Origin: Candidatus Sulfobium mesophilum
GTDB lineage: Bacteria > Nitrospirota > Thermodesulfovibrionia > Thermodesulfovibrionales > UBA6898
DNA length: 32,840 nucleotides
Reading direction: 5' to 3'
Assembly: GCA_900302705.1 (NCBI GenBank)
Contig: OUUY01000068.1
Span: 1-32,840, forward strand
Shown here: positions 10,682 through 12,981 of the stretch, in pieces
Layout of the letters: each line of letters starts with the position of its first letter
How positions within the stretch are numbered: the first letter of the stretch is position 1
Made by a program: the position numbers and the translations under genes
The notes under the pieces: generated by a model
Database searches by the model: none
What the model saw: only the letters and a program-made list of their open reading frames with translations
Told to the model about the DNA's origin: nothing

Positions 10682-11320
10682 TTATTCTATCATCAGGCCG
10701 TTGGGCAGTTCGTCCGTGTCATCGGGCCTGATAGGAAAATGAGTCGCGAGAAGTTGACCGGCTTCCTTGATCGCATCGCAGAGCGCATCGCATGCCCGGC
10801 CATCAGCGATGCCCTTTGACACCTGTGCGGCAAATTTGTTCAGGGTATCCTGTCCAATTTTTTCGTGTATCCCCTTGTCGGCAAGTACCCAGACCTTGTG
10901 CTCAAGGATACTGATAAAAAACAGAACGCCTGTACGCTCCTTAGTTCTGGTCAAACCCTTTTCATGAAAGGCCCTAATTGCCCGATGGCGCACTGCGCGC
11001 TCTCTTCTGCGTGCGCTGAGGAAGGCCGTCCTGAGAGGATGGTATTTTCTTAAAATCAACCTGAAGGGGAAAAATAAAAGAAATGCCAATGGGACGAAAA
11101 ACCAAAGCGAAGAATGAAGAAATAGGGCGGATATGATCAGTGATAGCAGACTGCCGAGGACAACACTTCCTATCACCTCGCCGTCGAGGTAGTCGTCACT
11201 TCTGTCTACCACCATCACAACGACCTCGCCGATGGTACAGCACTCCACGTCCTTGGTAGTCTGCTGTATTCGCTCCCGCTCTTCCTTAGTAAAGAACTGT
11301 TCTGCCCTTGAAAGTCCCAT
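10682..11320 (-). CDS. TPM-domain membrane protein
   Basis: A 212-residue protein with an N-terminal short TPM-like part (TKEERERIQQ, IGEVVVMVVDRSDDY), two hydrophobic segments at about 50-90, a basic stretch, and a second TPM-like half (TGVLFFISILEHKVWVLADK, AQVSKGIADG). TPM-domain proteins commonly sit next to LemA; a role in envelope or photosystem assembly is known for distant relatives, but the bacterial function is unclear. It begins at ATG 11320, overlapping the stop of the upstream TPM gene by one base (TAATG), so the two are translationally coupled. Confidence 0.75.
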   Translation of the reverse strand: MGLSRAEQFFTKEERERIQQTTKDVECCTIGEVVVMVVDRSDDYLDGEVIGSVVLGSLLSLIISALFLHSSLWFFVPLAFLLFFPFRLILRKYHPLRTAFLSARRRERAVRHRAIRAFHEKGLTRTKERTGVLFFISILEHKVWVLADKGIHEKIGQDTLNKFAAQVSKGIADGRACDALCDAIKEAGQLLATHFPIRPDDTDELPNGLMIE

Positions 11321-12381
11321 TACCAGTCTCCTGAGGCGCCGCCGCCGCCGAAGTCGCCGCCGCCCCCACCGCTAAAGCCACCACCACCGAAGTCCCTGCC
11401 ACCGCCTCCGCTGCCAAAACCTCCTCCGTAAAACCCTCCGGGCCAGAACCCACCTCCGCCTCGTCCACCGCCCGAAAAGAGCAATGGGAGAAGCAGTCCT
11501 GCTATAAGACCTATGACAGCCAGGGCCAGAAATCCAATAAGGCCAAGGGATATTGAGGATAGAAAAAAACTCAATGGCAATCCCAAAGCCCCTCCTATCG
11601 CACCGAGCGGGCGGGACATGCTTCCCAGAACAACGACGGCTATGCCGGCAAAGATGAGGAATGTCATGAAGCGGGACGAATTCTCGTGTCTCTTCGTCCG
11701 GTGACCGTTCTCGGCTTTGAACTCTCCCCGCGTAGCATCTATAAGTGCCGATACCCCTGCAACAAACCCGCCGTCATAATCTCCCCTCTTAAATCTCGGC
11801 TTTACCACCAGGTCTATTATTCTTCCCGCCATGAGGTCGGTCAACTTGCCTTCGAGTCCCCGCCCCACTTCGATTCTCATCTTTCTATCCTGCTTTGAGA
11901 CGACGAAGATCACTCCGTTGTCTTTTCCTTTCTGCCCTATCTTCCATGCCTCTGCGACCTTAATTCCATAGTCCTCGATTGCGTCTCCTTCAAGAGAAGG
12001 AACGGTGAGGATTACAATCTGGGTCGAGTCCGTCTGCTCAAAGTTCCTTAGCTCGTTTTCGAGTCCGGCCTTCGCCTCGGGAGAAATCATATTGGCGTAG
12101 TCATTCACATATCCCTGAAGCTTAGGTACATCAAGGGCAAAGACAGGACAGACAACAAATAACAGAGTGACTGTTACGAGGAAAAAAAAGCGGGCGACGT
12201 GGTTGCTACGCGCGACTTGGATGTTTGTCGGTAATAATTCTCTGCGAAGTGACGCACCCACAGCCTCGACTGTTTGAGGGCCGAAGTAATTCGGGCCCAG
12301 TTTCGAGGCTGTAGCGAAACGAGCCGCAGAATTGTCGAAAAATCTCCCCGGAATGCGAGAAGTTATCACGTCGTCTGCCAC
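11320..12381 (-). CDS. YgcG-like TPM-domain protein with Gly-rich C-terminus
   Basis: A 353-residue protein. A hydrophobic signal-like segment (FFFLVTVTLLFVVCPVFALD, about 64-83) precedes the TPM domain (YVNDYANMISPEAKAGLE through KPRFKRGDYDGGF), then two or three membrane segments (about 238-305) and a tail of nearly pure Gly with Phe/Ser, ending GGGASGDW, typical of this family. The GTG at 12381 lies six bases after the lemA stop. The first about 60 residues are not family-like and are encoded by a palindromic element (12260-12312 and flanks); no ATG, GTG or TTG lies near the signal peptide. The lemA-TPM-TPM order is conserved in many bacteria. Confidence 0.8.
   Translation of the reverse strand: MADDVITSRIPGRFFDNSAARFATASKLGPNYFGPQTVEAVGASLRRELLPTNIQVARSNHVARFFFLVTVTLLFVVCPVFALDVPKLQGYVNDYANMISPEAKAGLENELRNFEQTDSTQIVILTVPSLEGDAIEDYGIKVAEAWKIGQKGKDNGVIFVVSKQDRKMRIEVGRGLEGKLTDLMAGRIIDLVVKPRFKRGDYDGGFVAGVSALIDATRGEFKAENGHRTKRHENSSRFMTFLIFAGIAVVVLGSMSRPLGAIGGALGLPLSFFLSSISLGLIGFLALAVIGLIAGLLLPLLFSGGGRGGGGFWPGGFYGGGFGSGGGGRDFGGGGFSGGGGGDFGGGGASGDW
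12260..12312. repeat. palindromic element inside the 5' end of the TPM gene
   Basis: Outer arms ACAGCCTCGA (12260-12269) and TCGAGGCTGT (12303-12312) are exact reverse complements, and an inner stem GGGCC-GAA / TTC-GGGCCC (12278-12298) forms a second hairpin. A further stem CGAAAC/GTTTCG overlaps the right arm. This nested symmetry is typical of dispersed hairpin repeats (REP- or MITE-like). The full element probably runs from about 12205 to 12365, which covers the non-family N-terminus of the TPM protein. Confidence 0.55.
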
Positions 12382-12387
12382 TGGTTA

Positions 12388-12981
12388 CTAAAACTGTACC
12401 TTCGGCGCTTTTTCTGCTCCGGCCTCGGCCTTGAAGGGCTCCTTCAATTTCAGGTGAAGGAGCAGACTATTAGTAAGACTGTTGGGGAATGTCCTTATTG
12501 AGACGTTAAAAGTCTCGACTGCCTTGTTATAGCGGACACGGGCAACGTTAATCCTGTTTTCGGTGCCTTCGAGCTGGTGCTGAAGGTCCTGAAAATTTTG
12601 GTTTGCCTTCAGGTCAGGATATTTCTCGACGACTACCATCAGCCGCTGCAGAGCGCTCGACAGCGCGCCCTGGGCCTGCTGAAACTGCTCCAGTGCCTGA
12701 GGGTTGTTTATCATATCCTTGGTCATCTGGATCGAGCCTACTTTTGCCCTTGCCTCAGTCACCTGGGTAAGCGTTTCTTTTTCGTGCTTAGCGTAGGCCT
12801 TGACGACCTCTACAAGGTTAGGGATAAGGTCGGTCCTTCTCTGATATGAAGCCTCAACATCTCCCCATGCAGCCTTCACCGCCTCTTCGTTTGCCTGCAT
12901 CACATTGTAGCCGCAGCCTGAGAGCCCGACCAGCGTTGCGGCAAAAATAATAAAAGCAATATGCCTCACGTGTTTCTTCAT
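12388..12981 (-). CDS. lemA: LemA family lipoprotein
   Basis: A 197-residue protein whose N-terminus ([20 protein letters not shown]) leads to the lipobox LSGC (Cys23), so it is probably an outer- or inner-membrane lipoprotein. The LemA core is clear: [28 protein letters not shown], and the terminal [18 protein letters not shown]. The start at 12981 has AAGGAGG five bases upstream, preferred over a longer frame from 13062. It is followed within six bases by the TPM gene; the function of LemA/TPM clusters is not established. Confidence 0.92.

Follow-up and report, generated by a model that had tools for sequence, protein, structure and literature searches.

The in-frame capture of palindromic repeats by coding sequences has already been described for Rickettsia, Yersinia and some others, and the systems closest to the one analyzed here are covered by two papers, both used in excerpt (PMC2229807, PMC10969869). 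Rickettsia palindromic elements (RPE) are palindromes of ~105-150 bp that contain open frames; they occur between genes and also fused in frame into protein genes (PMC2229807, PMC10969869). YPAL, or RU-2, of Yersinia is 168 bp long, contains a frame of 56 residues and also occurs fused in frame; its copy in YPO1552 is part of a signal peptide (PMC2229807). ERIC, or IRU, is an intergenic imperfect palindrome of 127 bp with TA termini, a variable copy number and a reported effect on mRNA that depends on orientation, and it too is known from in-frame fusions; Correia, or NEMIS, elements are small hairpin repeats beside genes, whose transcripts are reportedly cut by RNase III (PMC2229807, PMC10969869).

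We analyzed a palindromic element at the start of a gene for a secreted TPM-domain protein in Nitrospirota, and compared it with these systems by their descriptions, as the excerpts give them. It resembles RPE in being a palindrome with an open frame that lies between genes or is fused in frame, but RPE are described within the frames of unrelated, often conserved proteins, whereas the Nitrospirota cases are at gene starts and mostly before export signals. YPAL is a similar palindrome fused in frame. In YPO1552 it supplies part of the signal peptide, however, whereas the Nitrospirota element precedes an existing one, and repeats of several types do so repeatedly at the same gene. ERIC shares with the element the form of an intergenic imperfect palindrome, a similar size, TA termini, variable copy number and the importance of orientation, but the element is longer (median copy length ~174 nt, compared to 127 bp), folds better on the strand opposite the genes and is strongly conserved at 12 of 25 sites. 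Its likeness to Correia/NEMIS is that of a small hairpin repeat beside genes. The repeated capture before one signal peptide, together with the strong conservation at those 12 sites, is unusual. Although of the same kind as ERIC, YPAL and RPE, the palindrome family appears to be new and uncatalogued, and the open-licence literature yielded no description of this Nitrospirota repeat family or of repeated capture at a lemA-TPM junction.

The window, by which we mean the whole stretch of 32,840 nt that was analyzed (contig OUUY01000068.1 of Candidatus Sulfobium mesophilum), contains lemA (12388..12981, minus strand; LemA family, E=7e-57) followed on the same strand by the gene for a secreted protein with a TPM domain (11320..12381; 353 amino acids from GTG 12381; TPM_phosphatase, E=2e-43) and, downstream of that, by a second, short TPM-domain gene (10682..11320; E=4e-10). 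The most upstream start codon of the first TPM gene is the GTG at 12379..12381, 6 nt past the lemA stop. The TPM domain (PF04536) occupies residues 92-215, after the signal peptide, whose hydrophobic core and c-region, FFFLVTVTLLFVVCPVFA (12136..12186, minus strand), were placed from the sequence and by comparison with orthologues. By eye, the hydrophobic core ahead of LDVP matches that of the orthologues, and with the predicted cleavage site the mature protein would be LDVP..., expected from 12135.

The element is an imperfect palindrome of 189 nt (12190..12378; minus strand when oriented as model R1 is, in line with lemA and TPM), and the base of its hairpin adjoins GTG 12381. It consists of a 14-bp outer stem (12190..12203 and 12365..12378), a middle stem of 8 + 6 bp (12228..12246 and 12325..12338), two perfect inner arms of 10 bp, ACAGCCTCGA (12260..12269) and TCGAGGCTGT (12303..12312), and an apical hairpin, CCGAA/TTCGG on the plus strand (12281..12294), with a tip that differs in length and sequence among copies. 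The inner arms are those reported in the first-pass annotation, and the GGGCC/GGCCC hairpin that it placed between them was recovered in the fold of 12185-12385. It had correctly seen a hairpin, but had missed the outer stem and drawn the element too small. The predicted fold of 12185-12385 had an energy of -84.9 kcal/mol (z -5.6) on the plus strand and -70.2 kcal/mol (z -3.2) on the gene (minus) strand, and in neither case did any of 200 dinucleotide shuffles do as well. The window copy has retained its stem with a sequence, end sequence included, unlike the consensus, which fits a structural constraint but is no proof of one.

As first annotated, the reading frame from GTG 12381 passes in frame through the element into the signal peptide, as part of the 353-amino-acid open reading frame. 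The accompanying claim that no other usable start codon is near was correct for the stretch from the end of the element to the signal-peptide core, but is not quite right otherwise: in-frame GTGs are present at codons 1, 5 and 41, the last inside the element at 12259..12261 (minus strand). Inspection of the window sequence found no convincing Shine-Dalgarno sequence before GTG 12381. Because this GTG has no clear ribosome-binding site, the coupling of TPM to lemA is one that we infer.

We think it likely that the segment is a dispersed, MITE-like palindrome at the TPM start that is read as a near-neutral prefix of the signal peptide and discarded. The family is present in the order and, more weakly, in other parts of the phylum. 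The segment belongs to this dispersed family, it lies at the lemA-TPM junction, and the TPM frame is open throughout it. The element would have entered just past the lemA stop, at or beside the TPM start codon. After terminating at lemA, ribosomes would start again at the GTG 6 nt downstream and carry translation across the hairpin, such that ~65 residues would precede the signal-peptide core, compared to roughly 10-25 in insert-free orthologues. Translation would then start at GTG 12381, with initiation at GTG 12261 possible in the window. Signal peptidase would remove the prefix along with the signal peptide, and for that reason the mature TPM protein would be unchanged. This loss of the prefix would be the reason that the junction tolerates palindromic repeats in frame and that, in relatives, it has retained them repeatedly. 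The extension itself would probably be close to selectively neutral, apart from staying open. This discarded-prefix account would explain the tolerance, the variety of frames and orientations, and why unrelated repeats have followed one another there, as described below.

Many copies of the element were found in relatives, which supports the original suggestion that a dispersed hairpin repeat lies at the beginning of the gene and is read as coding sequence. The window's own genome (~84% complete) gave no second full copy: BLASTN found none, and apart from the window copy the covariance model had no more than two weak hits, both confined to the apical part. Among 61 genomes (this one and 60 relatives), BLASTN gave a match at E<=0.1 in 14, including 10 places in G039 and eight in G059, and a match at E<1e-7 in eight of the 60 relatives. 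Model R1, built from 24 copies and scored on up to 15 candidates per genome of the order, matched 89 of these 176 genomes, including at least 15 matches in G039 and at least 12 in G059, and it matched 76 of 395 genomes sampled from the phylum, 62 of the 76 being in this order. As G039 and G059 illustrate, the family is MITE-like in being a short palindrome with several dispersed copies per genome. In a collection of named genomes, an exact 21-base family pattern was present in 40 stretches, all with Nitrospirota titles (Thermodesulfovibrionales, Nitrospirae, Nitrospiraceae etc.). A phage origin was unsupported, as the exact 21-base pattern was absent from the viral contigs searched. Rfam 15 had no match for the whole window at gathering scores and, at E<=1, none for three loci that carry good copies.

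The set of copies used in the following analyses was assembled from the loci found by BLASTN, the pattern and model R1, with further regions fetched best scores first; weak copies are under-represented in it. Dropping weak reverse-strand echoes reduced 169 copies to 153, and dropping one that overran its locus left 152. One of these had no anchor and was left out of the phase-aligned frame count (151 copies), and analyses of the ends used the 137 copies with a score above 85 and enough flanking sequence.

Several loci had a more complex arrangement. At three places in G049 (L017, L025 and L069), the 5' half belongs to the family and the 3' part is other hairpin-rich sequence, much alike in all three, suggesting a composite or a nested insertion. 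Two copies are directly in tandem at L206 (G149), and two lie less than 2 kb apart on G159:C1. At the different sites L107, L185 and L101, a near-identical 30-nt hairpin is inserted into the 3' arm, each time in the same position; the orthologues L064, L114 and L155 are without it, and it may be a small nested element or a module that is gained and lost. By eye, a second palindrome family with arms resembling GCAGGATATAGTATTTTCGCTC is present in the f2 genomes (L227:1306-1335, L234, L040, L049 and L241), and it also adjoins several copies of the main family.

The family hairpin is conserved by compensatory change. We aligned 32 copies of less than 83% identity (alignment A2), read on the strand opposite the genes and with copies longer than 190 nt left out. 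There were 64 pairs, 54 of them with changes on both sides compared to 37.6 in shuffles, and standard pairs made up 89.4% of cells compared to 72.7% in shuffles; none of 500 shuffles reached the value of the alignment for either standard pairing or two-sided changes. When the partner was shifted by 1-3 columns, pairing was ~40%, a control that leans in favor of the structure because the structure was predicted on the same alignment. Of the two strands, the one opposite the genes has the better fold in 148 of 152 copies, with a mean advantage of 11.9 kcal/mol. On the gene strand, the outer stems of 137 copies showed 213 A.C cells and 56 G.T cells, and A.C on this strand is G.U on the opposite one. 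Because related copies are not independent, these pairing and strand figures should not be taken as probabilities.

In the same 137 copies, Watson-Crick pairing was 72-89% at the nine outermost positions, compared to about 20-34% outside. The family has terminal inverted repeats with TA near the termini, as MITEs do: counted from the left end, most copies have T at the second position and A at the third, with the mirror image on the right. We rejected a MITE with invariant ends recognized by a transposase, as the sequence of the outer stem varies among copies and the pairing stays. A kink-turn in the conserved internal loop beside the apical stem was looked for by eye and was unconvincing.

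The copies occupy tight gaps between genes and are biased in orientation. Among 107 left-hand genes that run the same way as the element, 100 stop no more than 64 nt from it (the gene calls being simple open reading frames). Where both neighbors run the same way, the element has the gene-strand orientation in 65 cases and the opposite one in 14; with relatives collapsed, the numbers were 32 and 11 (p=0.002). This geometry, a hairpin after a stop codon, is like that of integron attC sites, which we considered; the listed places are not in arrays, save for a few close pairs.

We compared 25 pairs of orthologous sites across the order. Identity of the element (gaps ignored) was at least 94% in 12 pairs, 84-89% in six and at most 78% in seven. 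For a set of 13 pairs, chosen largely because their elements were so alike (the 12 pairs at >=0.94 and one at 0.89), fourfold sites were 29-38% different at every distance from the element, 0-60 nt included; one of these pairs, L185/L114, has one nearly undiverged flank and adds little. We rejected the view that the high identity stems from local gene conversion because fourfold divergence does not drop toward the element (0.38 at 0-60 nt and 0.32 at 900-2000 nt). Identity over all pairs of copies, with a median of 0.73 and a 99th percentile of 0.90, appears to speak against genome-wide concerted evolution. Because element identity is high while fourfold sites differ by 29-38%, the conserved copies seem to be held by selection on nucleotides, and some sites hold a differing or drifting copy. 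Several of these pairs also show good conservation of the intergenic bases immediately next to the element, and therefore the constraint may extend past its ends.

The better fold of the opposite strand, the excess of A.C over G.T, the very strong covariation, the conservation at 12 of the 25 sites and the orientation bias all favor the possibility that the element is primarily a conserved structured RNA, or folded single-stranded DNA, of the strand opposite the genes, with coding a by-product of its position. We hold this only tentatively. The seven site pairs at or below 78% identity argue against it, as do the TPM copies of G017 and G011, which drift, and the 87 of 176 genomes of the order without a match at the threshold used. 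This possibility and the discarded-prefix account are mutually compatible, and an RNA from the opposite strand is putative.

A TPM match at E<=1e-50 was present in 41 of the 176 genomes of the order, and we read one lemA-TPM junction in each. The element was at the junction in seven of the 41 loci, in the same orientation in five (G000, which is the window, G014, G021, G171 and G174) and in the opposite one in two (G017 and G011). Five of the seven copies were also found by the covariance model, for which 30 loci were searched. Model R1 has a single match in each of G000, G014 and G011, and in G011 its E-value agrees with the junction copy. By a rough null (at least 116 matches listed for the 41 genomes, and ~2500 equal junctions in each), 0.05 copies would be expected at this junction by chance. 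As with RPE, the element is present in frame in protein-coding genes, here at 7 of 41 TPM loci and in other genes.

Relatives without an insert have a short N-terminus at this junction, as the first-pass annotation had proposed to compare, and they include G001 of the same genus, which is too diverged to place the insertion point; the comparisons yielded neither a target-site duplication nor a nucleotide-level pair of empty and filled sites. The distance from the lemA stop to the mature start was at least 180 nt in 25 of the 41 loci, 130-179 nt in four and at most 129 nt in 11; one could not be measured. In 23 of the 25 long junctions, the exceptions being G132 and G142, the TPM frame was free of stops over a stretch of at least 55 codons leading up to the mature start.

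Some of these long junctions contain other repeats. Three of the inserts are dispersed: that of G002 has 37 matches, that of G162 has 12 in its own genome, 31 in G164, eight in G059 and 17 in G039, and that of G008 has 45, and seven in G018 (each count takes in the insert itself, and some places are counted on both strands). The inserts of the other long junctions look like further palindromic repeats, by eye only. At the junction loci L029, L227, L048, L045, L039, L037, L233 and L241, different repeats lie in frame before the TPM signal peptide, three of them dispersed and the others recognized by eye; at L227, one repeat seems, by eye, to be nested in another. At the TPM junction of G006 (L042), a palindrome of ~70 nt whose ends are perfect is in frame with the signal peptide that follows; it was unflagged by the profile search and by eye resembles the element without its middle.

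The element is also fused in frame to other genes, often before an export signal. These include a LysM-YkuD protein in G039, with a relative in G169, a periplasmic binding protein (G012), an LptE-like protein (L077), lipoproteins recognized by eye (G149, G159, G153 and G171), and a protein of no Pfam family (L061, L064 and L107) that is preceded by what we take to be trpS. Some of these fusions have alternative starts inside the element. A long fusion to a tRNA synthetase (L174) is not secreted and has its own start shortly past the element. In a strict test on small numbers, four copies were followed by no start for 40 codons past the element, and three of the four were signal-like, compared to 15 among 133 genes that have a start of their own (p=0.007). 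Lipoprotein orthologues at L265, L196 and L192 have the element at the N-terminus. In the G159 lipoprotein (L196), an ATG directly precedes the element, a second in-frame start follows 11 codons later, within the element, and the stretch up to the lipobox has no others. Between the lipoprotein loci of G149 and G159, the flanking gene is close and the elements are only ~75-78% alike, as if one copy had been replaced by another.

A different account of the window is that TPM starts at GTG 12261, in which case only the last third of the element would code and the rest would be an untranslated spacer hairpin that tunes expression. This start would give an ordinary signal peptide of 42 residues, and a strong hairpin at 12381 would hinder initiation there; in addition, ERIC and NEMIS/Correia hairpins are reported, in the excerpt used, to alter mRNA stability (PMC2229807). 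A start at GTG 12261 does not, however, call for an open frame over the whole element, which is what the window has. By offset, two sense frames are free of stops in 91 and 54 of 152 copies, compared to ~15 expected. Because small indels make offset frames mix codon phases, we followed the window's codon phase through the alignment, and found it open from end to end in only 18 of 151 alignable copies, one of them the window copy. At the junction, the element was open in the TPM frame in seven of seven copies. Other downstream genes had an open frame in 19 of 106 cases in the same orientation and in none of 67 in the opposite one (19 of 173 in all, among them other in-frame fusions), and the difference from the TPM junctions was significant (Fisher 6e-7, or 4e-6 if G017 and G011, which may share one insertion, are counted once, giving six). 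Moreover, G014, G011, G021 and G171 have no ATG, GTG or TTG in the stretch 18-45 codons before the mature start, which implies that these four start ahead of the element or within it; in G017, G174 and several other orthologues with long junctions, a start codon lies near the signal peptide. Lastly, the bases preceding GTG 12261 in the window include no clear ribosome-binding site. On balance, we consider a start at GTG 12261 unlikely.

We could compare selection on the prefix in one orthologous pair, the TPM genes of G017 and G011. Over the first 58 codons, dN was 0.41 and dS 0.60, and over the rest of the gene dN was 0.04 and dS 0.52. The prefix residues of this pair are hardly constrained; openness alone is. 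The earlier description of the segment as domesticated is apt insofar as the frame has been kept open, but this single testable pair gave no sign of selection at the protein level. The condition given for abandoning the idea of a repeat, that no copies be found anywhere and the same 60 residues be conserved in orthologues, does not describe the relatives, which have copies and in which the residues are not conserved. True domestication, with the 60 residues as a functional cytoplasmic N-terminal domain, would fit the open frame in all seven junction copies but is very improbable, given the near-neutral replacement between G017 and G011, the wide differences among the seven translated segments (those of G017 and G011 being read from the opposite strand), and the removal of these residues that would come with that of the signal peptide.

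We also put forward a broader proposal, as a conjecture that is less likely than not. The element would represent a new Nitrospirota family of structured elements that functions as the folded strand opposite the genes, with many of its sites under selection ~8 times tighter (as a raw difference) than nearby fourfold positions. The lemA-TPM junction would be a catchment in which this element and at least three other dispersed repeats have time and again become a cleaved signal-peptide prefix.

The lemA-TPM junction shows repeated captures by different repeats at one gene in one bacterial order, with uncaptured relatives at hand for comparison. It offers a testable case of where coding sequence may take up mobile DNA: immediately ahead of a signal peptide, a position from which the extra residues would be lost. 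The element family itself has a very clear conserved-hairpin signature and no Rfam entry, and at about half of the orthologous sites compared its conservation far exceeds that of nearby synonymous positions, which points to a function.
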